Source: Acidithiobacillus sp. YTS05 (GTDB lineage Bacteria > Pseudomonadota > Gammaproteobacteria > Acidithiobacillales > Acidithiobacillaceae). From it: a stretch of DNA of 64,000 nucleotides. This document shows positions 5,503 to 64,000 of the stretch, one piece after another (position 1 is the first letter of the stretch; the number at the start of each line of letters is the position of its first letter). The notes beneath the pieces are model-generated. The model did no database searches, was not told the DNA's origin, and saw nothing but the letters and a program-made list of their open reading frames with translations. The position numbers and the translations under genes were made by a program. The stretch covers positions 62,001 through 126,000 of the forward strand of contig NZ_CP094359.1 of NCBI RefSeq assembly GCF_024396695.1, read 5' to 3'.

Positions 5503-7338
5503 ATGTGTGGAATTGTTGGTGGAATTGCGGCAGACGATGTGGTCCCAGTCATTCTCGAGGGCTTACGGCGTCTGGAGTACCGTGGCTACGACTCGGCCGG
5601 CCTGGCCTTTGTCGACGCGCAGGGTGAGTTGCAGCGGCGGCGCAGCGTCGGGCGTGTCGCGGAGCTGGCGGCGTTGCAAACCAAGGAAGAGTTCCGAGCC
5701 ACGATCGGCATCGGCCACACCCGTTGGGCGACCCATGGCGGGATTGCTGAGCACAATGCCCATCCGCTGATCTCCCATGACGAGATTGCCGTAGTCCACA
5801 ATGGCATCATCGAAAATTATCAGAACTTACGCAGTCGTCTGCAGTCCCTGGGCTACCGCTTTACTTCCGAGACCGATACCGAAGTCATCGCCCATCTGGT
5901 GCACTGGTATCGTCAGCAGCTTCCTACCCTCCTTGCGGCGGTACAGGCGGCCAGTCGTGAGTTACAGGGTGCCTACGCCTTCGCCGTGCTCAGTCGGCGC
6001 GATCCGCAGGAGCTGATACTGCATCGCAAGGGTTGTCCCCTCTTGTTGGGCATCGCGGCGCAGGGACACTTTTTTGCCTCAGATGTGGCGGCACTGTTGC
6101 CGGTGACACGGCGGGTGATCTATCTCGAAGATGGCGATTTTGCCCGGCTCCAGCAGAATGCGTCATCTCTGCAGGATGTCGAGGGAGTGCTGGTACAGCG
6201 GGAAGAGCATTGGAGCCAGTTGAGCTCGGCCGCCATCGACCTCGGACCGTACCGCCACTTCATGCAGAAGGAAATCTACGAGCAGCCGCGCGCCGTCGCT
6301 GACACCCTGGAAGCGGCGCTGGATGGGGATTTTTCCATCGACCAGTTGTGGGGAAAGGGGGCGGCGGAGCGACTGCAAGAAATTGATCGCGTCCTGTTGC
6401 TGGCCTCGGGAACCAGTCATTATGCAAGCCTGGTGGGGCGCCAATGGATCGAGTCCATTGCGGGCATTCCGGCAGCGGCAGAACTTGGACACGAGTACCG
6501 CTACCGCGAGAGCATTCCCGATCCGCGCCAGCTCATCGTTACCCTGTCGCAGTCCGGTGAGACCCTGGATACCTACGAGGCGCTGCGGCACGCGCAGACC
6601 TTGGGGCATCTGCACACCCTGTCGATCTGCAACGTCGCGGAGAGTGCCATCCCGCGAGCGTCGGCCCTGCGGTTTCTCACTCGCGCCGGACCGGAAATCG
6701 GCGTCGCGTCGACCAAGGCCTTTACCACTCAGCTCGTTGCCCTCTACCTGCTCGCCCTCAGTCTCGGCGTGCTGCGTGGCCGGGTAGATGCGACCGCATT
6801 GCATACGCATCGCGAGGCCTTGCGGCAACTGCCGGGCAGCCTGCAGCAGGCCCTCAATCTGGAACCCCAAATCCAGCTCTGGGCGAATCGCTTTGCCGAC
6901 AAAGAACATGCCTTATTCCTCGGCAGGGGACTGCACTATCCCATTGCCCTGGAGGGAGCGCTGAAGCTCAAGGAGATTTCCTACATCCATGCCGAGGCTT
7001 ACCCTGCCGGCGAGTTGAAGCATGGGCCCCTGGCGCTGGTCGATCGGCAGATGCCCGTGGTGGTGATTGCCGCCAACGATCAGCTCTTCGAGAAGGTCGC
7101 TGCCAACATGCAAGAGGTCCACGCCCGTGGTGGGCAGCTCTACGTCTTTACCGATCTCGATAGCCACTATGAAGGCGGAGAGGGGGTGCATGTGATTCGC
7201 CTTCCCCGCCACGCCGGGCTGCTGTCACCCGTCCTCCATGCCATTCCGGTGCAGCTTCTCGCCTACCACGCCGCCCTAGTGAAGGGTACCGACGTCGACC
7301 GCCCGCGCAACCTGGCAAAGGCCGTGACTGTCGAGTAA
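5503..7338 (+). CDS. glmS: Glutamine–fructose-6-phosphate aminotransferase (isomerizing)
   Basis: This enzyme makes glucosamine-6-phosphate from fructose-6-phosphate and glutamine, the first step of hexosamine synthesis. The N-terminal class II amidotransferase domain starts MCGIVGG with the catalytic cysteine at residue 2. Two SIS sugar-isomerase domains follow ([18 protein letters not shown]; the SIS loop [20 protein letters not shown]). The C-terminus [11 protein letters not shown] is the conserved end, and its codons are the known TnsD recognition region of attTn7. The length of 611 residues is normal. Two Tn7-like elements follow directly. Confidence 0.98.
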
Positions 7339-7363
7339 CTACCGGTATCCGAGACGAGCGACA
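7303..7363 (+). other. attTn7 site (glmS 3' end and insertion point)
   Basis: In Tn7, TnsD binds the last codons of glmS and directs insertion about 25 bp past the stop. Here the stop codon ends at 7338 and the transposon begins at 7364, exactly 25 bp later. The last five of these bases, CGACA, are repeated at the far end of the inserted element. The binding region is inferred from the family; the spacing and repeat are seen directly. Confidence 0.85.
7359..7363. repeat. Target-site duplication CGACA (glmS-side copy)
   Basis: The 5-bp CGACA stands directly before the right-end terminus TGTTCGC of element 1 and recurs at 33589-33593 directly after its left terminus. Tn7-type transposition makes 5-bp duplications. 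Confidence 0.85.
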
Positions 7364-7431
7364 TGTTCGCAGGCAATAAAGTTTGCTCATGGGTAATAAA
7401 GTTTGGACATGGGCAATAAAGTTTACTCATG
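7364..7431 (+). repeat. Right end of E1: three 20-bp TnsB-binding repeats
   Basis: The core AATAAAG occurs at 7375, 7395 and 7415, an exact 20-bp period. The units are GGCAATAAAGTTTGCTCATG, GGTAATAAAGTTTGGACATG and GGCAATAAAGTTTACTCATG. Tn7 ends carry the same CAATAAAG core in their TnsB sites. Unlike the right end of E2, no repeat here is interrupted by an IS. Confidence 0.85.
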
Positions 7432-32015: not shown

Positions 32016-32075
32016 CTTATATGGATGCCTCCATTTGAGCAAGTCGACGTTCGATGTATGACGGTGAGGTCAAAG

Positions 32076-32200
32076 TGCTGCCTTATATCCGGCCTGTTAT
32101 GCAGGAGGTTCCTGCTGGCCCTGATGAAATCCGCTGAAAGGGACCTTATCTTTATTGCGTCCTTTTTTGGGACAAGATTGATCCAGGCTCTCCCTTCCCC
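32076..32200 (-). ncRNA. Putative bridge RNA/seekRNA of IS copy A
   Basis: Same 3' non-coding segment as in copy B (described there). On the plus strand the right-half target guide reads AAGATTGATC at 32174-32183, an exact match to this copy's own right flank ATTGATC plus core. Limits are approximate. Confidence 0.7.
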
Positions 32201-32282
32201 GGTCTGACCTGTTACGCCATCAATCGTGCCTACCTGCGCAACTGTGAAACTATAAACATGCTATTCGACTATCGTCCTGTAA

Positions 32283-33314
32283 TCATGCGACGGCTACCGC
32301 TATTGGCTTGTAATTCGGGTCATACTGGCGGTTTTTGGCCAGCAACGCCCAGATCGTTCGAGCCATTTTATTGGCTTGTGCTACGACGACCACATTGTGG
32401 GGCCGCCGACAGCGTAATTTGTCGATCCAGGGATTTCGATCCCTGGTCTGGCAATTCACCACGGCTCGCGCCCCATGGGCCAATAGGGTTCGGAGATAGG
32501 TATCTCCGCGCTTGCTGATACCCAACAGGCGAATCTTCCCGCCAGTACCGGTCTGCCGTGGAACCAACCCCAAGAACGACGCGAACTCCCGGCCAGAGCG
32601 AAAGGACTTCATATCCCCTACTGTAGCCACGATAGCTGTGGCAGTGAGTAGCCCCACGCCAGGGATCGCCATCAAACGGGCCACCGCTTCCTGGTCCTTT
32701 TTCCATAGCCTCAGCCGTTTCTCTATATCGGCTATGTCTTTGTCGAATTCTGCCAGCCGCTGGATCTGACGCCGGAAGGTCTCTAGTGCCACGGCCGATA
32801 GCCTGTCCTCCAACGTCGAGAGAGCATCGGGGATCTCCTTGAGACCTTTCTCGCGGCCTTGGGGAAGATCTATACCAAATTCATAGAGCAGCCCCCGAAT
32901 CTCATTCACCTGCATGGTCCGGATCTTGACCAACTGTTCCCGCATGCGATGCAAGGCCAGAACGGACTGCTGCTCCTCGCTTTTGACGGCGACAAAGCGC
33001 ATACCAGGACGCTGAACAGTTTCCCAGATCGCCGCTGCGTCTGCCGCATCGGTCTTGTTGGTCTTGACGAAAGGGCGCACAAACTGCGCCGCGATCAAGC
33101 GCACCTCGTGCCCTAGCTTGCCCAGTTCCCGCGCCCAGTAGTGGGCACTACCACAAGCTTCCATGGCGACAATGCCGGGCTCGCGGTTCACAAAGAACTC
33201 GAGCAATTTGCCACGTCGCACTTGCTTGCGATGAATCTCGCCCGTCTCCCAATCTACCCAGTGCAACTGCATCACCCGTTTTGCCAAATCCAGCCCATAA
33301 ATTGTATTCTGCAT
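32283..33314 (-). CDS. IS110-family transposase, copy A
   Basis: The 343-residue DEDD recombinase is identical in translation to the other full copies; see copy B for motifs. ATG 33314 has an AAGGAGG site; the extra 13 codons upstream are probably not used. It faces towards the E1 interior. Confidence 0.92.
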   Translation of the reverse strand: MQNTIYGLDLAKRVMQLHWVDWETGEIHRKQVRRGKLLEFFVNREPGIVAMEACGSAHYWARELGKLGHEVRLIAAQFVRPFVKTNKTDAADAAAIWETVQRPGMRFVAVKSEEQQSVLALHRMREQLVKIRTMQVNEIRGLLYEFGIDLPQGREKGLKEIPDALSTLEDRLSAVALETFRRQIQRLAEFDKDIADIEKRLRLWKKDQEAVARLMAIPGVGLLTATAIVATVGDMKSFRSGREFASFLGLVPRQTGTGGKIRLLGISKRGDTYLRTLLAHGARAVVNCQTRDRNPWIDKLRCRRPHNVVVVAQANKMARTIWALLAKNRQYDPNYKPIAVAVA

Positions 33315-33588
33315 CGTGAGTCCTCCTTGACCCATTTGTGGATGAACTTCCACCTTGGCACTTTGATGCCGTTCGGTTCAAGCGAGGGCTCCCTGCCTAC
33401 TCGTGGAGCTCCCCGCTGCCGATCCTATAAGGGGAGGCATCCATTACATCTTTATTACCGCAGAGAAGCGGCATATGATGAATCGTGTTCGATCCATGAT
33501 CAAACTATATTTTTTGAGTATGGGCAGGATGTTCACAAAAACAATAAGTTACGATACGTTCATGATCAATCTTTATTGACCATGAACA

Positions 33589-33593: not shown

Positions 33594-33746
33594 TGTTCGC
33601 AGGCAATAAAGATGTAATGGATGCCTCCCCTTATAGGATCGGCAGCGGGGAGCTCCACGAGTAGGCAGGGAGCCCTCGCTTGAACCGAACGGCATCAAAG
33701 TGCCAAGGTGGAAGTTCATCCACAAATGGGTCAAGGAGGACTCACG

Positions 33747-34778
33747 ATGCAGAATACAATTTATGGGCTGGATTTGGCAAAACGGGTGATGCAGTTGCAC
33801 TGGGTAGATTGGGAGACGGGCGAGATTCATCGCAAGCAAGTGCGACGTGGCAAATTGCTCGAGTTCTTTGTGAACCGCGAGCCCGGCATTGTCGCCATGG
33901 AAGCTTGTGGTAGTGCCCACTACTGGGCGCGGGAACTGGGCAAGCTAGGGCACGAGGTGCGCTTGATCGCGGCGCAGTTTGTGCGCCCTTTCGTCAAGAC
34001 CAACAAGACCGATGCGGCAGACGCAGCGGCGATCTGGGAAACTGTTCAGCGTCCTGGTATGCGCTTTGTCGCCGTCAAAAGCGAGGAGCAGCAGTCCGTT
34101 CTGGCCTTGCATCGCATGCGGGAACAGTTGGTCAAGATCCGGACCATGCAGGTGAATGAGATTCGGGGGCTGCTCTATGAATTTGGTATAGATCTTCCCC
34201 AAGGCCGCGAGAAAGGTCTCAAGGAGATCCCCGATGCTCTCTCGACGTTGGAGGACAGGCTATCGGCCGTGGCACTAGAGACCTTCCGGCGTCAGATCCA
34301 GCGGCTGGCAGAATTCGACAAAGACATAGCCGATATAGAGAAACGGCTGAGGCTATGGAAAAAGGACCAGGAAGCGGTGGCCCGTTTGATGGCGATCCCT
34401 GGCGTGGGGCTACTCACTGCCACAGCTATCGTGGCTACAGTAGGGGATATGAAGTCCTTTCGCTCTGGCCGGGAGTTCGCGTCGTTCTTGGGGTTGGTTC
34501 CACGGCAGACCGGTACTGGCGGGAAGATTCGCCTGTTGGGTATCAGCAAGCGCGGAGATACCTATCTCCGAACCCTATTGGCCCATGGGGCGCGAGCCGT
34601 GGTGAATTGCCAGACCAGGGATCGAAATCCCTGGATCGACAAATTACGCTGTCGGCGGCCCCACAATGTGGTCGTCGTAGCACAAGCCAATAAAATGGCT
34701 CGAACGATCTGGGCGTTGCTGGCCAAAAACCGCCAGTATGACCCGAATTACAAGCCAATAGCGGTAGCCGTCGCATGA
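33747..34778 (+). CDS. IS110-family transposase, copy B
   Basis: This RNA-guided DEDD recombinase has 343 residues. The N-terminal RuvC-like domain has D9 (YGLDLAK), E52 (AMEACGS), and D89 and D92 (NKTDAADA). The C-terminal Transposase_20 domain has the HhH-like IPGVGLLTATAIVATVGD and the conserved serine S267 in GISKRGDTYLR, the catalytic serine position in IS110 enzymes. ATG 33747 is preceded by AAGGAGG at the right distance. All catalytic residues are present, so the enzyme is probably active, in line with identical copies. Confidence 0.93.
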   Translation: MQNTIYGLDLAKRVMQLHWVDWETGEIHRKQVRRGKLLEFFVNREPGIVAMEACGSAHYWARELGKLGHEVRLIAAQFVRPFVKTNKTDAADAAAIWETVQRPGMRFVAVKSEEQQSVLALHRMREQLVKIRTMQVNEIRGLLYEFGIDLPQGREKGLKEIPDALSTLEDRLSAVALETFRRQIQRLAEFDKDIADIEKRLRLWKKDQEAVARLMAIPGVGLLTATAIVATVGDMKSFRSGREFASFLGLVPRQTGTGGKIRLLGISKRGDTYLRTLLAHGARAVVNCQTRDRNPWIDKLRCRRPHNVVVVAQANKMARTIWALLAKNRQYDPNYKPIAVAVA

Positions 34779-34860
34779 TTACAGGACGATAGTCGAATAG
34801 CATGTTTATAGTTTCACAGTTGCGCAGGTAGGCACGATTGATGGCGTAACAGGTCAGACC

Positions 34861-34985
34861 GGGGAAGGGAGAGCCTGGATCAATCTTGTCCCAAAAAAGG
34901 ACGCAATAAAGATAAGGTCCCTTTCAGCGGATTTCATCAGGGCCAGCAGGAACCTCCTGCATAACAGGCCGGATATAAGGCAGCA
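34861..34985 (+). ncRNA. Putative bridge RNA/seekRNA of IS copy B
   Basis: Target loop: outer stem GGGA..CCT (34867-34876) with AGGTCCC (34915-34921); guide GATCAATCTT (34878-34887); hairpin GTCC/GGAC (34888-34902); guide GCAATAAAG (34903-34911). Read as DNA, the guides give GCAATAAAG + AAGATTGATC, both halves of the TnsB repeat around the AAG core. Donor loop: guide ATTTCATC (34931-34938; IS left end gives ATTACATC), hairpin GGCC/GGCC with inner GCAGG/CCTGC (34941-34970), guide ATATAAG (34973-34979; equals the IS right end 35039-35045). Both loops have the same order of guides. The fold is mine; ends of the RNA are not known. Confidence 0.75.
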
Positions 34986-35200
34986 CTTTGACCTCACCGT
35001 CATACATCGAACGTCGACTTGCTCAAATGGAGGCATCCATATAAGTTTGATCATGGGTAATAAAGATGTAATGGATGCCTCCCCTTATAGGATCGGCAGC
35101 GGGGAGCTCCACGAGTAGGCAGGGAGCCCTCGCTTGAACCGAACGGCATCAAAGTGCCAAGGTGGAAGTTCATCCACAAATGGGTCAAGGAGGACTCACG

Positions 35201-36232
35201 ATGCAGAATACAATTTATGGGCTGGATTTGGCAAAACGGGTGATGCAGTTGCACTGGGTAGATTGGGAGACGGGCGAGATTCATCGCAAGCAAGTGCGAC
35301 GTGGCAAATTGCTCGAGTTCTTTGTGAACCGCGAGCCCGGCATTGTCGCCATGGAAGCTTGTGGTAGTGCCCACTACTGGGCGCGGGAACTGGGCAAGCT
35401 AGGGCACGAGGTGCGCTTGATCGCGGCGCAGTTTGTGCGCCCTTTCGTCAAGACCAACAAGACCGATGCGGCAGACGCAGCGGCGATCTGGGAAACTGTT
35501 CAGCGTCCTGGTATGCGCTTTGTCGCCGTCAAAAGCGAGGAGCAGCAGTCCGTTCTGGCCTTGCATCGCATGCGGGAACAGTTGGTCAAGATCCGGACCA
35601 TGCAGGTGAATGAGATTCGGGGGCTGCTCTATGAATTTGGTATAGATCTTCCCCAAGGCCGCGAGAAAGGTCTCAAGGAGATCCCCGATGCTCTCTCGAC
35701 GTTGGAGGACAGGCTATCGGCCGTGGCACTAGAGACCTTCCGGCGTCAGATCCAGCGGCTGGCAGAATTCGACAAAGACATAGCCGATATAGAGAAACGG
35801 CTGAGGCTATGGAAAAAGGACCAGGAAGCGGTGGCCCGTTTGATGGCGATCCCTGGCGTGGGGCTACTCACTGCCACAGCTATCGTGGCTACAGTAGGGG
35901 ATATGAAGTCCTTTCGCTCTGGCCGGGAGTTCGCGTCGTTCTTGGGGTTGGTTCCACGGCAGACCGGTACTGGCGGGAAGATTCGCCTGTTGGGTATCAG
36001 CAAGCGCGGAGATACCTATCTCCGAACCCTATTGGCCCATGGGGCGCGAGCCGTGGTGAATTGCCAGACCAGGGATCGAAATCCCTGGATCGACAAATTA
36101 CGCTGTCGGCGGCCCCACAATGTGGTCGTCGTAGCACAAGCCAATAAAATGGCTCGAACGATCTGGGCGTTGCTGGCCAAAAACCGCCAGTATGACCCGA
36201 ATTACAAGCCAATAGCGGTAGCCGTCGCATGA
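35201..36232 (+). CDS. IS110-family transposase, copy C
   Basis: The 343 residues are identical in translation to copy B with all DEDD residues and S267. The gene ends 133 bp before the insertion of copy D and is intact. Confidence 0.92.
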   Translation: MQNTIYGLDLAKRVMQLHWVDWETGEIHRKQVRRGKLLEFFVNREPGIVAMEACGSAHYWARELGKLGHEVRLIAAQFVRPFVKTNKTDAADAAAIWETVQRPGMRFVAVKSEEQQSVLALHRMREQLVKIRTMQVNEIRGLLYEFGIDLPQGREKGLKEIPDALSTLEDRLSAVALETFRRQIQRLAEFDKDIADIEKRLRLWKKDQEAVARLMAIPGVGLLTATAIVATVGDMKSFRSGREFASFLGLVPRQTGTGGKIRLLGISKRGDTYLRTLLAHGARAVVNCQTRDRNPWIDKLRCRRPHNVVVVAQANKMARTIWALLAKNRQYDPNYKPIAVAVA

Positions 36233-36500
36233 TTACAGGACGATAGTCGAATAGCATGTTTATAGTTTCACAGTTGCGCAGGTAGGCACGATTGATGGCG
36301 TAACAGGTCAGACCGGGGAAGGGAGAGCCTGGATCAATCTTGTCCCAAAAAAGGACGCAATAAAGATGTAATGGATGCCTCCCCTTATAGGATCGGCAGC
36401 GGGGAGCTCCACGAGTAGGCAGGGAGCCCTCGCTTGAACCGAACGGCATCAAAGTGCCAAGGTGGAAGTTCATCCACAAATGGGTCAAGGAGGACTCACG

Positions 36501-37532
36501 ATGCAGAATACAATTTATGGGCTGGATTTGGCAAAACGGGTGATGCAGTTGCACTGGGTAGATTGGGAGACGGGCGAGATTCATCGCAAGCAAGTGCGAC
36601 GTGGCAAATTGCTCGAGTTCTTTGTGAACCGCGAGCCCGGCATTGTCGCCATGGAAGCTTGTGGTAGTGCCCACTACTGGGCGCGGGAACTGGGCAAGCT
36701 AGGGCACGAGGTGCGCTTGATCGCGGCGCAGTTTGTGCGCCCTTTCGTCAAGACCAACAAGACCGATGCGGCAGACGCAGCGGCGATCTGGGAAACTGTT
36801 CAGCGTCCTGGTATGCGCTTTGTCGCCGTCAAAAGCGAGGAGCAGCAGTCCGTTCTGGCCTTGCATCGCATGCGGGAACAGTTGGTCAAGATCCGGACCA
36901 TGCAGGTGAATGAGATTCGGGGGCTGCTCTATGAATTTGGTATAGATCTTCCCCAAGGCCGCGAGAAAGGTCTCAAGGAGATCCCCGATGCTCTCTCGAC
37001 GTTGGAGGACAGGCTATCGGCCGTGGCACTAGAGACCTTCCGGCGTCAGATCCAGCGGCTGGCAGAATTCGACAAAGACATAGCCGATATAGAGAAACGG
37101 CTGAGGCTATGGAAAAAGGACCAGGAAGCGGTGGCCCGTTTGATGGCGATCCCTGGCGTGGGGCTACTCACTGCCACAGCTATCGTGGCTACAGTAGGGG
37201 ATATGAAGTCCTTTCGCTCTGGCCGGGAGTTCGCGTCGTTCTTGGGGTTGGTTCCACGGCAGACCGGTACTGGCGGGAAGATTCGCCTGTTGGGTATCAG
37301 CAAGCGCGGAGATACCTATCTCCGAACCCTATTGGCCCATGGGGCGCGAGCCGTGGTGAATTGCCAGACCAGGGATCGAAATCCCTGGATCGACAAATTA
37401 CGCTGTCGGCGGCCCCACAATGTGGTCGTCGTAGCACAAGCCAATAAAATGGCTCGAACGATCTGGGCGTTGCTGGCCAAAAACCGCCAGTATGACCCGA
37501 ATTACAAGCCAATAGCGGTAGCCGTCGCATGA
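36501..37532 (+). CDS. IS110-family transposase, copy D
   Basis: The 343 residues are identical in translation to copy B, intact, with the same AAGGAGG ribosome-binding site. Confidence 0.92.
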   Translation: MQNTIYGLDLAKRVMQLHWVDWETGEIHRKQVRRGKLLEFFVNREPGIVAMEACGSAHYWARELGKLGHEVRLIAAQFVRPFVKTNKTDAADAAAIWETVQRPGMRFVAVKSEEQQSVLALHRMREQLVKIRTMQVNEIRGLLYEFGIDLPQGREKGLKEIPDALSTLEDRLSAVALETFRRQIQRLAEFDKDIADIEKRLRLWKKDQEAVARLMAIPGVGLLTATAIVATVGDMKSFRSGREFASFLGLVPRQTGTGGKIRLLGISKRGDTYLRTLLAHGARAVVNCQTRDRNPWIDKLRCRRPHNVVVVAQANKMARTIWALLAKNRQYDPNYKPIAVAVA

Positions 37533-37614
37533 TTACAGGACGATAGTCGAATAGCATGTTTATAGTTTCACAGTTGCGCAGGTAGGCACGATTGATGGCG
37601 TAACAGGTCAGACC

Positions 37615-37739
37615 GGGGAAGGGAGAGCCTGGATCAATCTTGTCCCAAAAAAGGACGCAATAAAGATAAGGTCCCTTTCAGCGGATTTCATCAGGGCCAG
37701 CAGGAACCTCCTGCATAACAGGCCGGATATAAGGCAGCA
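37615..37739 (+). ncRNA. Putative bridge RNA/seekRNA of IS copy D
   Basis: Same segment as in copy B, intact here: target guides GATCAATCTT and GCAATAAAG, donor guides ATTTCATC and ATATAAG. Limits are approximate. Confidence 0.7.
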
Positions 37740-38030
37740 CTTTGACCTCACCGTCATACATCGAACGTCGACTTGCTCAAATGGAGGCATCCATATAAGA
37801 TAAGGTCCCTTTCAGCGGATTTCATCAGGGCCAGCAGGAACCTCCTGCATAACAGGCCGGATATAAGGCAGCACTTTGACCTCACCGTCATACATCGAAC
37901 GTCGACTTGCTCAAATGGAGGCATCCATATAAGTTTGGACATGGGCAATAAAGTTTGCTCACAGCTCTTGCCATTTCCGATGGTGAGGAGTAGCGTGAAC
38001 TTTCGGTAGTCTCGATCCGGGGAGGGCACT

Positions 38031-38873
38031 GTGGCCCGACGCCGTTACACTATCGACGAACAGCGGATTGCCCTGTTTGAGCAAGAGGGACGGGGCAGAG
38101 GTGTCGGCGCGGACTACAAACCCTGGTTGGCGATTCAGGACGTGCCGTCAACGGGGCGGAGTACCCGCCTCCGAGGGATTCATACCGGGCGCATACACCA
38201 TTTGCTCTCTGACATTGAACGAAGCCTCTTCTACTGCTTGGATTGGGAAGATTCGGTCGCTGATATTCGGGAACAGTTCCCCTTGGACCGATCCGCGACC
38301 TCCCAGATTGCCGAAGCCTGCAATATTCCGCACCCCCGCTTCCCGGGTATGGTGACACCGATGGTTATGACCACGGACTTTGTGGTCGATGCCTGCGCCG
38401 GCGGCAAATTGGTGCAAACGGCCTATGCCGTAAAATCCGCCAAGGATCTCGACCAGCCCAGAACACTGGAAAAGTTGGAAATAGAAAGACTCTACTGGGA
38501 AAGAAAGGAAGTTGAGTGGAGCATCGTCACCCCGGCCGTTCTTCCGACCCAACTGATCCGTAATATTGAGTGGGTTCACAATTTCTACCGTCTGGAGGGC
38601 CTTGTCGAACCGCACCCGGGCTTCTACCAAGACGCTGGACGCCGAATGCGGGCACAAGTCAGCGCCTCCCCCTGGTTGTCGCTGCGACAATTTTGTGGGG
38701 ACATGGAAGTCCGCTTGGGTCTGGGCAGCGAAGAGGGTTTGATGCTGTTCCGACACTTTCTGGCGACCAAGTCGGTTCTTTGCGATATGGATTCAGTGGT
38801 GCTGAGCGACCCGCTGATCACCATGGCGTCCTTCCGCACTCTGCCTGGCGGACGCCAGGAGAACCGGGCATGA
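38031..38873 (+). CDS. tnsA: Tn7-like transposase subunit TnsA (endonuclease)
   Basis: TnsA cuts the 5' strands at the transposon ends together with TnsB, giving cut-and-paste movement. The 280-residue protein has the restriction-endonuclease-like residues E63 (SDIERSLF), D116 (MTTDFVVD) and K135 (AVKSAKDL), close to E63/D114/K132 of Tn7 TnsA. The start is GTG with a GGGGAGGG site. It lies about 75 bp after the last TnsB repeat, so in the ancestral state its promoter would overlap the right end. It overlaps tnsB by 4 bp. Confidence 0.93.
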   Translation: MARRRYTIDEQRIALFEQEGRGRGVGADYKPWLAIQDVPSTGRSTRLRGIHTGRIHHLLSDIERSLFYCLDWEDSVADIREQFPLDRSATSQIAEACNIPHPRFPGMVTPMVMTTDFVVDACAGGKLVQTAYAVKSAKDLDQPRTLEKLEIERLYWERKEVEWSIVTPAVLPTQLIRNIEWVHNFYRLEGLVEPHPGFYQDAGRRMRAQVSASPWLSLRQFCGDMEVRLGLGSEEGLMLFRHFLATKSVLCDMDSVVLSDPLITMASFRTLPGGRQENRA

Positions 38874-41017
38874 GCTTTCTTGCCCTCAACCAACTGTTGG
38901 AATTCTCCGAGGACGGGCACACTGAGCGGGTATTGTGGATCGACGCGGGCGACCCGGGCTATGTTTGCATAGACATTCATGCTGAGCACTCCAACCCGCT
39001 GTACCGACGTCACGCCGATGTGATTCGCCTGCTGGATGAGGGTGTTGTCCAACTAGGCAAAGAAGATTCCTTGCTCATCAACAAGAGTGAAGGCCGGCTC
39101 TCTGCTGCACAACGGGCTAAGCGCGACCAAAACTTTGCTCGGATCGCTCCGGTTCTGCAGCGGCAGCCGGAGATCTTTGATCTCCGCAAGCGCGGCAAAA
39201 TCCTTGCTGAATTTTCTTCCACTCATGGGGAAAGTCATCACAGCCTGTTGCGGTTGTTGCGTCGTTACTGGCAGCGCGGCATGACACCGAACGCTCTGCT
39301 GCCCGATTACGCCAATTCCGGCGCACGTGGCCGGGAACGCGCTGCCACTGGCAAGCGTCGTGGACGACCACCGAAGAACGACGGGAACTCCGTCAATGTC
39401 ACGCCGGAAACGCGCGCGATTTTCAAGGCGGCCGTCACCCGATTTTATGCCATGCATCCGGTTTTTGAGCTGACGGAGTGTTACCACGCGATGCTGCGTG
39501 CCTCTTTTTCGGATTCGGTGGTAGACCCCGGCACCGGCCAGCAGGAATGGGTTTTGCGTTCGGGTGCGCCAAGCTGGTGGCAGTTTCGTTACTGGTATCA
39601 GAAAGATAACGACATTTTTGCGCTCAAACGTCGTCGGGCATCTTCACGCGTCTATGACAAGGACATGCGCGCTCTGACCAGCACGGCAACGGGGGAGACT
39701 GTTGGCCCGGGCTCGCGTTACCTCATCGACGCGACGATTGCGGATATTTATCTCGTCTCCCGCTATTTTCCCGACAAAATCGTCGGTCGACCCGTGGTGT
39801 ATGTGGTCATAGACGTATTCAGTCGAATGATCGCCGGGTTACACGTGGGATTCGAGGGGCCGAGCTGGGTCGGCGCCATGCAGGCGTTAGGCAACGCCGT
39901 GCTCGATAAAACGGACTACTGCGCCCAATTTGGTGTTGCTATCGACACTGCGGACTGGCCGTGCCAAGGCATGCCGGAGGCAATTCTGGGCGACCGCGGA
40001 GAAATGGTTGGCGAGATGATCGAAACGCTGATTCAGACTTTCGCCGTCCGAATAGAGAATTCAGCTCCATACCGTGCCGACTGGAAGGGGGTTGTAGAAC
40101 AACAGTTTCGCCTGCTGCCTGCGAGATTCAAGGCCTATACGCCTGGGTATATTCAGACAGACTATCGGGAGCGTGGGGGTAACGACTACCGCTTGGACGC
40201 GAAACTAAATATTGATCAGTTTACCAAGATTCTGATTTATTGTGTAAAGTACTATAATACCCAGCATCGGGTCAAGGAGTACCCGCTTGCTCCAGAGATG
40301 ATTCATGATGCAATTCCAGCTGTTCCGATCGAGCTATGGAATTGGGGGATTTCGCACCGTAGCGGTCGGCTTCGTCGCTACCCGGATGAGATCGTGCGCC
40401 TTAGCCTGTTACCACATGCGGACGCGATGGTAACTGCCAGAGGTATCCGCTTATTCGGGCTGTATTACTCCTGTTCGTTTGCCATGCAAGAGCATTGGTT
40501 TGAACGTGCGCGCCAAATTCGAAATTGGCGGGTCCGTGTTTCTTATGATCCGCGTTGTATGGATGCTATATGGTTGCAGGGGAAGTCTGGGCAACCGCGG
40601 TTCATCGCTTGTACCCTTATGGAGCAAAGCCGCGAGCATGCATGCAAGACTCTATGGGAGATCGACCAATTACGGCAGGCATCGAAGGAGGTTGCTCATA
40701 GTCACCAGCGTAGCGAAACAACCGGACGTATCAATCTGGTCGATCAAATTCAACGGGTCGTTGCCGATGCCAAATCACGGCTTCCCCTGGTTTCTGATCG
40801 GTCTGATCGCCAAAGAACCAAGGACATCCGTGGTAACCGTCGCGCGGAACTGGCTGCCTTACGTCATAAGGACGCAACGCGCACGACAAGTATGAAGACG
40901 GACGTCCCTGCCGAGGTTGTTTCTTTCCCTGGCGCTCCACCCACAAAGGACTACAGCCTGCCGGATATCACGGAGATGCTGCACAAATTTCGCGAAGGCG
41001 AGCAGGAAGAGGAGTAA
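38870..41017 (+). CDS. tnsB: Tn7-like transposase subunit TnsB (DDE integrase)
   Basis: TnsB binds the end repeats and performs 3' cleavage and strand transfer. The 715-residue protein has a DDE triad D287 (YLIDATIADIYL), D375 (ILGDRGEM) and E410 (GVVEQQFRL). The spacings of 88 and 35 residues equal those of Tn7 TnsB (D273, D361, E396). ATG 38870 overlaps the tnsA stop as ATGA; the open frame upstream is a shadow of tnsA. N-terminal helix-turn-helix regions would bind the AATAAAG repeats. No defects seen. Confidence 0.95.
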   Translation: MSFLALNQLLEFSEDGHTERVLWIDAGDPGYVCIDIHAEHSNPLYRRHADVIRLLDEGVVQLGKEDSLLINKSEGRLSAAQRAKRDQNFARIAPVLQRQPEIFDLRKRGKILAEFSSTHGESHHSLLRLLRRYWQRGMTPNALLPDYANSGARGRERAATGKRRGRPPKNDGNSVNVTPETRAIFKAAVTRFYAMHPVFELTECYHAMLRASFSDSVVDPGTGQQEWVLRSGAPSWWQFRYWYQKDNDIFALKRRRASSRVYDKDMRALTSTATGETVGPGSRYLIDATIADIYLVSRYFPDKIVGRPVVYVVIDVFSRMIAGLHVGFEGPSWVGAMQALGNAVLDKTDYCAQFGVAIDTADWPCQGMPEAILGDRGEMVGEMIETLIQTFAVRIENSAPYRADWKGVVEQQFRLLPARFKAYTPGYIQTDYRERGGNDYRLDAKLNIDQFTKILIYCVKYYNTQHRVKEYPLAPEMIHDAIPAVPIELWNWGISHRSGRLRRYPDEIVRLSLLPHADAMVTARGIRLFGLYYSCSFAMQEHWFERARQIRNWRVRVSYDPRCMDAIWLQGKSGQPRFIACTLMEQSREHACKTLWEIDQLRQASKEVAHSHQRSETTGRINLVDQIQRVVADAKSRLPLVSDRSDRQRTKDIRGNRRAELAALRHKDATRTTSMKTDVPAEVVSFPGAPPTKDYSLPDITEMLHKFREGEQEEE

Positions 41018-41023
41018 GTCACC

Positions 41024-42646
41024 ATGGCTTCATCCCCGACCGACCCCCCTCTTTTGCCGGAGTTTCGGGACAACCCCTTCATCAATCGCTTACCGCCGCA
41101 GCTCTCACAGCGAAATGCTTGGCAGTTTCTGTCCGACCCGCCGGAGTTTAACCCTGAGGAGCGGACCTATCCAATCCAACTCCGAATGAATTGCCTGTAT
41201 CGGCTCCGCCGCTTCTTCGAGCCCCTGGAACACCACCTGCGGCTGGAATCAGCTTTTTCCACCCTGTTACGCCAGGGTTATGTCAGCCGCAATCCCTTGC
41301 AGTCAGATTACATCTGGCGTCTGCAAGATGGCCATGAGCGCATCCTCGCCCGCGATCTCAGTGCGGGACGTCATTATGTTGGAGGAACTGCGGAAGGGTT
41401 TGCGCTCATTGGAGCCTCAGGGGCGGGTAAAAGCACTGCGATCAATCGGATTCTGAGCTACTACCCGCAGGTTGTTACGCATGACGAACCCTTTAGCCTT
41501 CAGCAGGTGGTTTGGCTCAAGCTCGACTGTCCCCACCAGGGCTCACCGAAGCAGCTCTGCATGCATTTTTTCCAGGAGCTTGATTTGGCCCTAGGCGCGC
41601 GAACGTTTGCCCAATTTGGCAAAACGCGCAATCCGGTGGACTTGATGATGGCCCAGATGGCGCAACTCGCAAATCGCCATGCACTTGGCGTGCTCATCAT
41701 TGACGAGATACAACATCTGACCTTGGCCAAGGGAGTGGGGCGGGATGCTTTACTGAACTTCTTGGTGACCCTCATCAATACCATCGGTATTCCGGTAATT
41801 ATGATTGGGACGATGGGGGCCCTGTCCCTCTTCCAGGATGACTTTCGGCAAGCCCGTCGCGCCAGTGGCATCGGGTGCGCGGTCTGGGAGCGCCTGCGGC
41901 CAGAGTCAGCATGGGACCACTTCGTCGACGTCTTGTGGAAATACCAATGGACGCGGCAAGAAACTCCGCTTACAGACGAAATCCGCTATGTTTTATATGA
42001 GGAAAGTCAGGGGGTCATTGACGTACTGATCAAGCTGTTTATGTTGGCGCAACTTCAGGTGATGGAGCAGAGCGCTTTCCGCAACACACCCGAGGTGATG
42101 GATGCGCGACTGTTCCGCGAGACATCTGCGAGGCACCTCAAGATCATCGAACCAATGATGAGAGCGCTCAAGACCAATAATCAGCGGGAGATTAGCAAGT
42201 ATGACGATTTGCGACCCTTGGATAGCCACGTTTCACAGGTTTTCCAGAATGTTATGCCGCAAATGGAGACCATTTCGCTATCCATGCCGGACTTCGATTC
42301 TGGAAAGGGCGGGGAATCGGGCGATGTCGACCCGCTGATCGGTGTTTTGGTGCAGGCCGGGTTGGCAACAGACCTTGCCACACCGATGGCCGCCAAGGTT
42401 CGAGCCCTGCACCCTGATGCTTCGATGCTGGAACTTATCGGCTTCGTCTCTGTTTTGTTACAAGATCCGGGGAATGCGGTGCCAAGGAAGGGTAAACGCC
42501 CATCAGGAAAGCAAGTACCACGCAAACCTTTGGCAGTATCCAGGATCTCGGACATGGTGCGAGAGGGCCAGGAGGTTGGGCGAAATGCCGAAGAATCGCT
42601 GATAGCTGCCGGGCTGATCCGCCGCCCACAATTCGGTCCAGGATGA
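41024..42646 (+). CDS. tnsC: Tn7-like AAA+ regulator TnsC
   Basis: This ATP-dependent switch links target selectors TnsD/TnsE to TnsAB and mediates target immunity. The 540-residue protein has Walker A GASGAGKST at 130-138 and Walker B VLIIDEIQHL from residue 223. The length is close to Tn7 TnsC (555). It lies 6 bp behind tnsB and 3 bp before tnsD. Confidence 0.94.
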   Translation: MASSPTDPPLLPEFRDNPFINRLPPQLSQRNAWQFLSDPPEFNPEERTYPIQLRMNCLYRLRRFFEPLEHHLRLESAFSTLLRQGYVSRNPLQSDYIWRLQDGHERILARDLSAGRHYVGGTAEGFALIGASGAGKSTAINRILSYYPQVVTHDEPFSLQQVVWLKLDCPHQGSPKQLCMHFFQELDLALGARTFAQFGKTRNPVDLMMAQMAQLANRHALGVLIIDEIQHLTLAKGVGRDALLNFLVTLINTIGIPVIMIGTMGALSLFQDDFRQARRASGIGCAVWERLRPESAWDHFVDVLWKYQWTRQETPLTDEIRYVLYEESQGVIDVLIKLFMLAQLQVMEQSAFRNTPEVMDARLFRETSARHLKIIEPMMRALKTNNQREISKYDDLRPLDSHVSQVFQNVMPQMETISLSMPDFDSGKGGESGDVDPLIGVLVQAGLATDLATPMAAKVRALHPDASMLELIGFVSVLLQDPGNAVPRKGKRPSGKQVPRKPLAVSRISDMVREGQEVGRNAEESLIAAGLIRRPQFGPG

Positions 42647-42649
42647 TCT

Positions 42650-44470
42650 ATGTTGACGTACCTGCCCGCGCTGCATCCCGAGGAGCTGCTATATAGCCTA
42701 TTGGCACGAACATGCCGCCACAGCGGATGGCAAAGCCCGAAGCTTGCTCTGGAGGAGTTTTTTGGGCACCGGAGTGTTCGTGCAGGAGTGTTTCTGCAGA
42801 CGGAATTGAACTGTCTCGCTGATCGATTACCGGCTCGGCGCCAATTGACTTCAAAACGGTTGGCGCACAAAACCACCTTGCTGCCCTATCTCACAGCTTT
42901 TTCGACGCCTGATGTTCGTGACTGGGCGCTAAATGTTCTGATGGGTGAAAACGGGGATGCCGATACCCTGTATATCAGATTGGGGCTTGTCGCTAGTTCC
43001 GTGAACCTTACTACCACGCTGCGGTATTGTCCGGCTTGCCGCACGGAGATGCTGGAGAAGTACGGCGAACTCTACTGGCGGCGCGACCATCAACTTCCTG
43101 GCGTACTGGTTTGCCCAACTCATGCCGTGCCACTCGTCGATAGCCGGGTGATTCTCTCGCATACTGGTCAACATGAATTCATCGCTGCCGATGAGAACAA
43201 TTGCCCAGCCAATCCAAATCTGCCATCTTGGTCAGATCGCGCAAACGTTGCTGCACGGCTACTCGAGATCGCCAAGGCCAGCGTCGCTCTTTTGATCGCA
43301 CCACCAAATCCGCTTCCACTGCACAGCTGGGGTCGGGAATACCGGACCGCGTTGCGGGCGCGGGGGTTCGGTCGCGGTAACTCCCATATCGATCAATCCG
43401 CTCTGCTGCATTCCTACGATGCCCGCTTTGGGGCGGTCATCGATGTCTTACCGGAAGCCATACCCGACGGGTGGCTGGAAGCCATCACACGCAAACACCG
43501 TCACGCTTTTGCCCCACTACGCCATATTCTGATTCGTCTGCTGATCGATTCTCGGCCCTTGGTGCCGGAGCTTCGCCCATTCGGCGACGGACCTTGGCCC
43601 TGTTGCAATCCGCTCGCCGAGCATTACGGGCACCTAATGATCGCCGAATGCCAACTCCATGCGGAAAAAAGGAAAATCATTGGAGTGTTCCGTTGCACCT
43701 GTGGCTACGCGTTCAGCAGAGCGGCACATCCCGATAGTCGTCCCAGAATCCTGAACTTTGGCCCTCTGTTCGAGAGCCGACTGCGCGAACTAGTTATTTC
43801 CGGGACCAGTTTGCGCGGTACTGCCAAGGCCTTGCATGTCGACACCAGGACAGTGTTGCGTTACGTCGCTCGACTGGAGTTGACGACCCCTTGGAAGGTC
43901 TTGCCAAAGCAAGTCACATTGCCGCCTCCCGACCGCATGACCATGCGTGAACGATGGAATCGAGCGTATTGTGCAGAGCGGAGCCTTACCCGAAAGGAAC
44001 TGCGTAAGCGGATGCCTGCAGTGTATATGTGGCTCTACCGCTATGACCGGGAGTGGCTGGGGTCCCAGCCACCTTTGCCCAGGTCCTTGAGAAACAACAG
44101 AGCGCGCATCAACTGGGCACATGTAGACGCCCAAACTGCAGAGTTTTTGCGAGGCGAAGCAGATAAGTTGTTGACTCATCTCCCTCCGGTTCGGGTTACC
44201 CGTGCCGCATTGGAGCGCGCTCTGGATCGACGAGGTTGGCTGGGGAAGCGGCTACACAAATTGCCGCTGTGCGCGTCAATCCTGGACGAGGTGACGGAAA
44301 ATGAGGATGCGTTCCAATGTCGGCGCATTGCTTGGGCCTATGCAGAATTGTGCCGGCAGGGATTGCCTGTCCAAGCCTGGCGGCTACGCCGATTGGCCGG
44401 CCTGCCGGAACAGTGTGCAACAGTAGTGGAGACGGCTATCTTCGCTGCCCAGAACCGAGGGGAGAGATGA
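42650..44470 (+). CDS. tnsD: Tn7-like target selector TnsD (TniQ family)
   Basis: TnsD recognises the glmS 3' end and steers insertion to attTn7. The 606-residue protein has an N-terminal TniQ domain with the zinc ligands C127, C130 (YCPACRTEM), C155 and H158 (CPTH), matching the CCCH finger of Tn7 TnsD. A helix-turn-helix at about 380-410 (ISGTSLRGTAKALHVDTRTV) follows. It is longer than Tn7 TnsD (508). E1 and E2 both sit behind glmS, which agrees with attTn7 specificity. Confidence 0.93.
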   Translation: MLTYLPALHPEELLYSLLARTCRHSGWQSPKLALEEFFGHRSVRAGVFLQTELNCLADRLPARRQLTSKRLAHKTTLLPYLTAFSTPDVRDWALNVLMGENGDADTLYIRLGLVASSVNLTTTLRYCPACRTEMLEKYGELYWRRDHQLPGVLVCPTHAVPLVDSRVILSHTGQHEFIAADENNCPANPNLPSWSDRANVAARLLEIAKASVALLIAPPNPLPLHSWGREYRTALRARGFGRGNSHIDQSALLHSYDARFGAVIDVLPEAIPDGWLEAITRKHRHAFAPLRHILIRLLIDSRPLVPELRPFGDGPWPCCNPLAEHYGHLMIAECQLHAEKRKIIGVFRCTCGYAFSRAAHPDSRPRILNFGPLFESRLRELVISGTSLRGTAKALHVDTRTVLRYVARLELTTPWKVLPKQVTLPPPDRMTMRERWNRAYCAERSLTRKELRKRMPAVYMWLYRYDREWLGSQPPLPRSLRNNRARINWAHVDAQTAEFLRGEADKLLTHLPPVRVTRAALERALDRRGWLGKRLHKLPLCASILDEVTENEDAFQCRRIAWAYAELCRQGLPVQAWRLRRLAGLPEQCATVVETAIFAAQNRGER

Positions 44471-61445: not shown

Positions 61446-61637
61446 AATCTTTCGGACGAGAGCATTATACCGAAAACCCTTGTGGGTTGGGCCTTCCCAA
61501 CAATTTATCGCTACGCCAATCGCGGGAATAGGGCTTCGACTGGCGGGTCTTCACCGCAACGCCTTGCTGTGATTAAACTTATATGGATGCCTCCATTTGA
61601 GCAAGTCGACGTTCGATGTATGACGGTGAGGTCAAAG

Positions 61638-61762
61638 TGCTGCCTTATATCCGGCCTGTTATGCAGGAGGTTCCTGCTGGCCCTGATGAAATCCGCTGAA
61701 AGGGACCTTATCTTTATTGCGTCCTTTTTTGGGACAAGATTGATCCAGGCTCTCCCTTCCCC
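61638..61762 (-). ncRNA. Putative bridge RNA/seekRNA of IS copy E
   Basis: Same segment as in copy B, intact on the minus strand. Limits are approximate. Confidence 0.7.
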
Positions 61763-61844
61763 GGTCTGACCTGTTACGCCATCAATCGTGCCTACCTGCG
61801 CAACTGTGAAACTATAAACATGCTATTCGACTATCGTCCTGTAA

Positions 61845-62876
61845 TCATGCGACGGCTACCGCTATTGGCTTGTAATTCGGGTCATACTGGCGGTTTTTGG
61901 CCAGCAACGCCCAGATCGTTCGAGCCATTTTATTGGCTTGTGCTACGACGACCACATTGTGGGGCCGCCGACAGCGTAATTTGTCGATCCAGGGATTTCG
62001 ATCCCTGGTCTGGCAATTCACCACGGCTCGCGCCCCATGGGCCAATAGGGTTCGGAGATAGGTATCTCCGCGCTTGCTGATACCCAACAGGCGAATCTTC
62101 CCGCCAGTACCGGTCTGCCGTGGAACCAACCCCAAGAACGACGCGAACTCCCGGCCAGAGCGAAAGGACTTCATATCCCCTACTGTAGCCACGATAGCTG
62201 TGGCAGTGAGTAGCCCCACGCCAGGGATCGCCATCAAACGGGCCACCGCTTCCTGGTCCTTTTTCCATAGCCTCAGCCGTTTCTCTATATCGGCTATGTC
62301 TTTGTCGAATTCTGCCAGCCGCTGGATCTGACGCCGGAAGGTCTCTAGTGCCACGGCCGATAGCCTGTCCTCCAACGTCGAGAGAGCATCGGGGATCTCC
62401 TTGAGACCTTTCTCGCGGCCTTGGGGAAGATCTATACCAAATTCATAGAGCAGCCCCCGAATCTCATTCACCTGCATGGTCCGGATCTTGACCAACTGTT
62501 CCCGCATGCGATGCAAGGCCAGAACGGACTGCTGCTCCTCGCTTTTGACGGCGACAAAGCGCATACCAGGACGCTGAACAGTTTCCCAGATCGCCGCTGC
62601 GTCTGCCGCATCGGTCTTGTTGGTCTTGACGAAAGGGCGCACAAACTGCGCCGCGATCAAGCGCACCTCGTGCCCTAGCTTGCCCAGTTCCCGCGCCCAG
62701 TAGTGGGCACTACCACAAGCTTCCATGGCGACAATGCCGGGCTCGCGGTTCACAAAGAACTCGAGCAATTTGCCACGTCGCACTTGCTTGCGATGAATCT
62801 CGCCCGTCTCCCAATCTACCCAGTGCAACTGCATCACCCGTTTTGCCAAATCCAGCCCATAAATTGTATTCTGCAT
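61845..62876 (-). CDS. IS110-family transposase, copy E
   Basis: The 343 residues are identical in translation to copy B, intact, with an AAGGAGG site before ATG 62876. Confidence 0.92.
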   Translation of the reverse strand: MQNTIYGLDLAKRVMQLHWVDWETGEIHRKQVRRGKLLEFFVNREPGIVAMEACGSAHYWARELGKLGHEVRLIAAQFVRPFVKTNKTDAADAAAIWETVQRPGMRFVAVKSEEQQSVLALHRMREQLVKIRTMQVNEIRGLLYEFGIDLPQGREKGLKEIPDALSTLEDRLSAVALETFRRQIQRLAEFDKDIADIEKRLRLWKKDQEAVARLMAIPGVGLLTATAIVATVGDMKSFRSGREFASFLGLVPRQTGTGGKIRLLGISKRGDTYLRTLLAHGARAVVNCQTRDRNPWIDKLRCRRPHNVVVVAQANKMARTIWALLAKNRQYDPNYKPIAVAVA

Positions 62877-63192
62877 CGTGAGTCCTCCTTGACCCATTTG
62901 TGGATGAACTTCCACCTTGGCACTTTGATGCCGTTCGGTTCAAGCGAGGGCTCCCTGCCTACTCGTGGAGCTCCCCGCTGCCGATCCTATAAGGGGAGGC
63001 ATCCATTACATCTTTATTACCTCGTTGCGGGACCTGGCGACGATGCTGATGGGCACCATGATCAAACTATATTTTCGAGGTGGAGTATCGGTGCCTAAAA
63101 AAACAATGTGTTATGATCTATCCATGATCAAACTTATATGGATGCCTCCATTTGAGCAAGTCGACGTTCGATGTATGACGGTGAGGTCAAAG

Positions 63193-63317
63193 TGCTGCCT
63201 TATATCCGGCCTGTTATGCAGGAGGTTCCTGCTGGCCCTGATGAAATCCGCTGAAAGGGACCTTATCTTTATTGCGTCCTTTTTTGGGACAAGATTGATC
63301 CAGGCTCTCCCTTCCCC
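63193..63317 (-). ncRNA. Putative bridge RNA/seekRNA of IS copy F
   Basis: Same segment as in copy B, intact on the minus strand. Limits are approximate. Confidence 0.7.
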
Positions 63318-63399
63318 GGTCTGACCTGTTACGCCATCAATCGTGCCTACCTGCGCAACTGTGAAACTATAAACATGCTATTCGACTATCGTCCTGTAA

Positions 63400-64000
63400 T
63401 CATGCGACGGCTACCGCTATTGGCTTGTAATTCGGGTCATACTGGCGGTTTTTGGCCAGCAACGCCCAGATCGTTCGAGCCATTTTATTGGCTTGTGCTA
63501 CGACGACCACATTGTGGGGCCGCCGACAGCGTAATTTGTCGATCCAGGGATTTCGATCCCTGGTCTGGCAATTCACCACGGCTCGCGCCCCATGGGCCAA
63601 TAGGGTTCGGAGATAGGTATCTCCGCGCTTGCTGATACCCAACAGGCGAATCTTCCCGCCAGTACCGGTCTGCCGTGGAACCAACCCCAAGAACGACGCG
63701 AACTCCCGGCCAGAGCGAAAGGACTTCATATCCCCTACTGTAGCCACGATAGCTGTGGCAGTGAGTAGCCCCACGCCAGGGATCGCCATCAAACGGGCCA
63801 CCGCTTCCTGGTCCTTTTTCCATAGCCTCAGCCGTTTCTCTATATCGGCTATGTCTTTGTCGAATTCTGCCAGCCGCTGGATCTGACGCCGGAAGGTCTC
63901 TAGTGCCACGGCCGATAGCCTGTCCTCCAACGTCGAGAGAGCATCGGGGATCTCCTTGAGACCTTTCTCGCGGCCTTGGGGAAGATCTATACCAAATTCA
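63400..64000 (-). CDS. IS110-family transposase, copy F (5' part outside window)
   Basis: The C-terminal ~200 residues, including the Transposase_20 domain and the catalytic serine region GISKRGD, are visible and identical to the other copies. The N-terminal DEDD part lies beyond the window. Confidence 0.9.
   Translation of the reverse strand, partial: EFGIDLPQGREKGLKEIPDALSTLEDRLSAVALETFRRQIQRLAEFDKDIADIEKRLRLWKKDQEAVARLMAIPGVGLLTATAIVATVGDMKSFRSGREFASFLGLVPRQTGTGGKIRLLGISKRGDTYLRTLLAHGARAVVNCQTRDRNPWIDKLRCRRPHNVVVVAQANKMARTIWALLAKNRQYDPNYKPIAVAVA

Follow-up and report, generated by a model that had tools for sequence, protein, structure and literature searches.

IS4321 and IS5075 are IS1111-type elements that enter the terminal inverted repeats of Tn21/Tn3 transposons and, in addition, look-alike chromosomal sites such as ureC (PMC8269217, in the part of the text available). 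The insertion sequence (IS) analysed here resembles them in both habits but differs in that it targets a Tn7-like host with several internal end repeats, so that a single end has room for more than one copy. Its predicted RNA resembles the seekRNAs of ISEc11, ISKpn4, ISPst6 and ISPa11, which, according to the accessible sections of PMC11187229, lie in the 3′ non-coding region of elements with sub-terminal repeats, place the guide complementary to the top strand first and show natural reprogramming; those RNAs, in contrast, are directed to a short linear site, to attC sites and to REP sequences. SeekRNAs are reported to measure roughly 70-100 nt (PMC11187229), the size expected for an RNA covering about 34860-34985 here. 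The bridge RNA of IS621 has target and donor loops, a common core and a circular donor (PMC11208160, portions available), and its transposase matches the present one in sequence, but IS621 belongs to the IS110 group, carries the RNA in its 5′ end, uses simple internal loops and targets REP sequences. Tn5468, located at glmSU in A. ferrooxidans, is a Tn7-like element from the same bacterial family; it corresponds to the victim and not to the IS, and the part of its description available mentions no IS in its ends (PMC2621215).

Literature searches combining IS1111/IS110 with Tn7, TnsB or bridge RNA, with most subscription papers outside their reach, returned no report of insertion into Tn7-like ends, as judged by titles, the opening lines of abstracts and some passages. 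As far as these searches extend, the Tn7-end niche and a hit on the element's own guide are new, while the RNA plan is already known. The distinct targeting niche suggested in the original prediction stands, within the reach of these searches, for Tn7-like ends as a target; a guide set against the ends of another family has a precedent in IS4321/IS5075 on Tn21-family transposons, as far as the sources seen in part describe it. Here, we describe a segment (34861-34985) of a 64-kb window, the whole stretch of Acidithiobacillus DNA that was analysed, which very probably encodes the predicted bridge/seek RNA of an IS1111-type IS, with target guides spelling a Tn7-like end repeat.

The IS1111-type element and its predicted RNA

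The segment lies in the 3′ non-coding part of one complete IS copy, which is laid out as follows.

33612 to 35045, plus strand: complete IS copy 2, 1,434 bp, carrying segment 34861-34985; ends set from 12 copies
33708 to 34778, plus strand: IS1111/IS110-type DEDD transposase, 356 aa (PF01548, E 2.3e-10; PF02371, E 1.8e-23)
34818 to 35045, plus strand: aligned portion of the predicted bridge/seek RNA, in the 3′ non-coding region and extending to the right IS end, from the alignment and conserved fold
34878 to 34887, plus strand: right target guide GATCAATCTT, complement of AAGATTGATC, from sequence and guide/flank comparison
34888 to 34902, plus strand: hairpin GTCC..GGAC separating the target guides, stem arms 34888-34891 and 34899-34902, from the conserved fold
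34903 to 34911, plus strand: left target guide GCAATAAAG with the terminal core AG, from sequence and guide/flank comparison
34931 to 34938, plus strand: donor guide ATTTCATC, directed at the left IS end with one mismatch; the variant goes with the left-end type
34973 to 34979, plus strand: donor guide ATATAAG, exact right IS end, from sequence and alignment

Transposase domains, end layout and relatives all bear out the claimed IS110/IS1111 identity. The protein combines a DEDD N-terminal domain with a C-terminal Transposase_20 domain (PF01548 and PF02371, both above cut-off), and among PDB sequences its C-terminal part matches the IS621 and ISCro4 transposases. Sub-terminal repeats of 12 bp (ATGGATGCCTCC and GGAGGCATCCAT), within the 11-13 bp of the IS1111 group, leave 7 bp outside on the left (AGATGTA) and 3 bp on the right (ATA), as in IS1111 elements; this end plan matches the description in the available part of PMC11187229, and a script recovered the same repeat layout in the relative L059. 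The non-coding DNA is likewise distributed in the IS1111 manner, with 267 nt past the transposase stop versus 96 nt ahead of the listed start. Twelve copies of the transposase gene, with 100% protein identity, are present in the genome (2.76 Mb, two contigs); 11 of the IS copies are uninterrupted and identical across all 1,434 bp, and the twelfth (copy 3) is split by another copy, its two pieces being likewise identical.

The guide, hairpin and donor strings named in the original prediction are all present at the positions listed above. The target loop holds guides for both strands, the complement of the top strand coming first, and the donor loop, which also has a GGCC/GGCC stem, agrees with both IS ends as had been proposed, ATATAAG exactly and ATTTCATC with its one mismatch; both features are those of a seekRNA or bridge RNA. 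Folded as a single strand, 34779-35045 reaches -79.3 kcal/mol (z -2.6), and 4 of 200 shuffles did at least as well. Comparison extended to 13 non-coding regions, that of the window and those of 12 relatives, in which mean column identity is 85% and both target guides stand out as variable islands. RNAalifold assigned 58 pairs to these sequences, 8 of them with two-sided changes. The stems originally drawn, comprising 23 pairs, are paired in 99.0% of cells across the 13 sequences and show two-sided changes in 7 pairs, and sliding the partner by one column lowers pairing to 50-54% (35-54% for slid structures overall). None of 500 shuffles scored as high on four of five measures; on the fifth, further pair types, the count was 9 against a shuffled mean of 10.8, and 498 of 500 shuffles scored as high. 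Most of the covariation falls in the outer stem around the target loop, a single helix in which it affects 5 of 7 pairs. The structure check on relatives that had been called for thus came out in favour of the named stems, and the two-loop bridge/seekRNA plan is upheld by a fold kept with compensatory changes. A scan of the window against Rfam at the gathering score gave 0 matches to described RNA families.

Tn7-like ends as insertion sites

Read together, the target guides give CAATAAAG|ATTGATC, which is the end repeat of a tandem pair of Tn7-like elements behind glmS, the usual Tn7 attachment gene.

5503 to 7338, plus strand: glmS, with GATase and SIS domains
7364 to 33588, no strand assigned: Tn7-like element 1, nitrate reductase cargo, R-end repeats 7375-7428 without IS, from its ends and an ORF domain scan
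32016 to 33449, minus strand: IS copy 1 in the element 1 L-end repeat GGTAATAAAG|ATTGATCAC, from junctions
33564 to 33578, minus strand: CAATAAAGATTGATC, joint guide target, unoccupied L-end repeat of element 1 and the only exact match in the 2.76-Mb genome
33589 to 33593, no strand assigned: CGACA, 5-bp repeat common to both elements, also at 7359-7363 and 64585-64589, from sequence
33594 to 64000, no strand assigned: Tn7-like element 2, ending at 64584 beyond the window, from end repeats and junctions
35066 to 36365, plus strand: IS copy 3, first part, occupying the second repeat at the R end of element 2, from junctions
36366 to 37799, plus strand: IS copy 4, lying within the target loop of copy 3 immediately past GCAATAAAG, from junctions
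37800 to 37933, plus strand: IS copy 3, second part, from junctions
38031 to 44470, plus strand: tnsA, tnsB, tnsC and tnsD of element 2 (PF08722/PF08721, PF09299, PF13401/PF05621, PF15978/PF06527)
61578 to 63011, minus strand: IS copy in the element 2 L-end repeat GGTAATAAAG|TTTAATCAC, from junctions
63133 to 64000, minus strand: IS copy in the outermost repeat at the L end of element 2, running to 64566 past the window, from junctions

Element 2 is recognizable as Tn7-like by its tnsABCD genes, TGT...ACA ends, several repeats, 5-bp duplication and glmS site. Each of the four ends of the tandem pair carries three repeats of the type GG(C/T)AATAAAG(A/T)TTGATCATGG; 2 of these 12 read ATATAG, not ATAAAG, and both are empty. 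End repeats in the Tn7 plan are bound by TnsB, and this plan, together with the conservation of the repeats in relatives, suggests that those described here bind TnsB as well. Compared with plasmids, the element 2 transposition proteins gave a best TnsB match of 49% identity, which added nothing on targeting. Element 1 carries respiratory nitrate reductase genes; no tns domain was found in its 18 ORFs scanned, and it may depend on the transposition proteins of element 2 for movement. A third Tn7-like element lies elsewhere in the same genome (C1, about 2,662,300-2,696,400; L197, L198 and L217), with a TnsA match at 2,662,661. Its repeats (left half of the CAATAAAG type, another right half; CAATAAAGTTTCATC-type, CAATAAAGTTTCATCCTG) were intact where found, and none of those seen holds an IS.

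Among the 12 IS copies, 5 sit in Tn7-like end repeats, 1 inside the guide of a sister copy and 6 elsewhere. Ten end repeats have a matching left half, and the five that are occupied, one at the L end of element 1, two at the R end and two at the L end of element 2, were entered precisely and in a single orientation relative to the repeat. The empty ones include the perfect match, all three repeats at the R end of element 1 and one of those at the R end of element 2. The claim that the guides spell a Tn7-like end repeat is therefore sustained by 5 of the 12 copies sitting in such repeats and by the only exact joint match being one of them. IS-free counterparts in related genomes cover four of the five occupied sites (G022 for the R end of element 2, L204, and for a further L-end site, L208; G025 for the L end, L205), and the insertions were therefore precise and without target duplication at these four. 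Single orientation at all five end-repeat copies and the lack of duplication at the four with an empty counterpart are IS1111 traits. Were insertion random, five end-repeat hits would have a chance of about 9e-27 when calculated with nine repeats, and of 9e-17 when any position within 450 bp of end sequence is allowed.

Homologous recombination, or the duplication of a single first insertion, could in principle have spread the copies to the Tn7-like ends, given that the end repeats are mutually similar and the copies identical. The flanks of the five copies all differ, however, and four equal empty ends in G022 or G025, as also holds for copies 2 and 3, which lie only 20 bp apart; the IS borders, moreover, are exact at every insertion. 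We regard this route as extremely unlikely. At the right junctions of the window copies, the IS right end CATATAAG followed by TTTGATCATGG is similar to AAATATAG-TTTGATCATGG, a naturally occurring variant of the end repeat, and a plugged repeat may therefore be partly restored at the right end of the IS.

Guides and flanks across relatives

The IS end and the target have an AG core in common, which reads CT on the opposite strand. Left flanks of relatives, located without requiring AG, close with AG in 21 of 21 cases (20 distinct), a count that omits the left junctions from other family genomes, whose search pattern itself contained AG. The predicted CT core on the opposite strand is confirmed by these flanks, and the predicted shared core AAG is corrected to an invariant AG. 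In the present genome, AAAG is common to all 12 insertion sites, and the six copies outside Tn7-like ends keep it, five of them with ATTG or TTTG no more than two bases away. As half of the 12 copies are at other sites, targeting is preferential, not exclusive, and the single perfect genomic match to the guides stays empty. At the off-target sites (L003, L004, L009, L010, L011 and L012), ATTG or TTTG often stands 1-2 bases farther from the core than the guide predicts; such spacing of the right half also occurs in several relatives and hints at loose spacing in right-guide pairing.

The correspondence between guides and flanks was assessed in a close clade, for which 37 rows were tabulated. 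Once 12 without a full flank had been removed, there remained 25 distinct sites, 11 from the own genome and 14 from elsewhere, with 10 guide pairs; the split copy 3 was left out because its loop is broken. Left guides score 5.04 of 6 against their own flanks and 2.42 when permuted, with 0 of 20,000 permutations as high. For right guides of this clade the agreement is weaker, at 3.23 of 7 against 2.47 permuted (123 of 20,000 as high). An earlier guide-by-flank search in 22 distant relatives was biased, the guides having been picked by flank match, and was replaced by flank-blind anchors, which retained 15 of 30 distant relatives, the other 15 being dropped where the anchor or flank was not found. 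In these 15, left guides reach 4.47 of 6 versus 2.38 permuted and right guides 5.07 of 6 versus 3.50 permuted (0 of 5,000 as high for each), averages that still include L070, L071 and L074, probably mis-anchored with left matches of 0 to 2 of 8. The donor guides ATTTCATC and ATTCCATC occur with left ends ATGT and ATGG, respectively, in 12 of 12 rows including the window, of which 11 are distinct, L059 repeating L021; one mismatch is always left in both the ATGT and ATGGC groups, and the agreement comes from two related groups of rows. In five distant relatives from four genera (L081, L083, L086, L090 and L099), the right guides are near-identical (CGTCCGG), and 3 of the 5 sites begin CGTCCGGC, perhaps one conserved target across genera.

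Since guides agree with their own flanks, the guides of this clade track its insertion sites in the comparison that the original prediction had proposed, and this tracking is nature's equivalent of swapping guides in an experiment. ISEc11/ISXne4 are reported to have been reprogrammed naturally (PMC11187229, in the sections available). These comparisons also bear on whether a short AAAG-type core preference alone could direct the element, the Tn7-like ends being hit for their several such motifs in A+T-rich DNA and the guide match being incidental. AAAG at all 12 sites, six of them unrelated to Tn7-like ends, would fit such a preference, but family members with about 80% identical transposase have other left halves, which match their own guides, and a 4-bp core does not explain why five copies fell within roughly 450 bp of a 2.76-Mb genome. 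This makes a core preference acting alone very unlikely, and guiding by the predicted RNA is the reading we retain. The claim of a guide set against Tn7-like ends thus holds in its guide/flank co-variation and natural empty sites, as a preference, with half of the copies elsewhere.

Within the family at large, the guide pair stands apart. In other family genomes, 33 left junctions were found and 27 examined (one cut off at a contig end), and the left half ATAAAG occurs in 0 of the 27, as it does in 0 of the 21 left flanks of relatives found without requiring AG; the guides and left junctions read in 28 other family genomes likewise include no second copy with the guide pair of this IS, and viral contigs gave 0 AATAAAG left junctions. 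A TnsA survey of 369 genomes of the class gave 34 matches in 25 genomes, the own genome included, and 30 neighbourhoods were examined, 28 of them from 24 other genomes. The only IS110-type gene within 1.5 kb of TnsA in these 30 neighbourhoods, a small sample, is that of the window, and no second lineage attacking Tn7-like ends was found among them.

Self-insertion, proposed mechanism and significance

Copy 3 is broken 1,300 bp in, just past its own left target guide, where copy 4 begins, and both pieces are otherwise intact. By its very design the left guide repeats, as DNA, the left half of the target, which makes the guide gene itself a partial target; past the core, the in-register match to the right half is limited to AT at this site. 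The insertion of copy 4 has presumably cost copy 3 its guide RNA. A regular-expression search of the available loci, using the motif of this clade, for a copy behind a sister's left guide found copies 3 and 4 of the window as the only true match. A match at L199 was rejected as an ordinary left flank with no likeness to the guide RNA region. Tandem IS110 genes on a Paraburkholderia sabiae plasmid (L200) were likewise set aside as a self-hit, the second gene being by eye a different element and the border lying on the donor side. On that plasmid (L200, 3000-3300), a seemingly different IS110-type element starts just past the donor loop of an IS1111-type one.

From the sequence evidence, we infer that the RNA is made and guides insertion. 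In the mechanism that we propose, the 3′ non-coding RNA would bind the transposase; the first loop of the RNA would pair with the two strands of CAATAAAG|(A/T)TTGATC, the second with the ends that meet in the excised, circular IS, and recombination at the common AG core would insert the IS in a single orientation and without target duplication. Plugging 5 of 10 repeats, two of them at each end of the tns-bearing element 2, would block Tn7-like movement, and the IS likely cripples the transposon it enters.

Two readings of this mechanism differ in how far the element is specialized. It may be an RNA-guided hyperparasite, whose guide is set to the predicted TnsB repeats, which spreads with Tn7-like islands and locks them with several copies per end, and which, through the half-target that its own guide gene inevitably carries, strikes and silences sister copies as a brake on copy number; this is a tentative reading that we consider rather unlikely. 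It may instead be a generalist whose guide has come to fit the ends by drift, the cluster reflecting one recent burst, which is quite conceivable, although we would not expect it to prove correct. The generalist reading is compatible with RNA-guided insertion as set out above and competes solely with the hyperparasite. It draws on the half of the copies that lie elsewhere, on the guide pair unmatched among the guides and junctions read in 28 other family genomes and on the single IS110-type gene near TnsA in the 30 neighbourhoods, but two of the repeats agree with the right guide along ten bases, core included, in addition to the agreement with the left guide, which is beyond what drift would readily produce.

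Under RNA-guided insertion, the locus offers a natural and fully readable bridge/seek RNA case, in which the guide, the target repeats, occupied and empty sites and differently guided relatives are all present in the sequence, and in which the target family, Tn7-like ends, is one that the literature found, seen in part, does not name as a target. That the guide gene holds a copy of the half-target raises the question of whether such elements are exposed to self-insertion, which, if general, would be a practical warning to tool builders on the self-targeting of bridge-RNA constructs. It also makes testable the question of whether RNA-guided IS elements immobilise Tn7-like islands.
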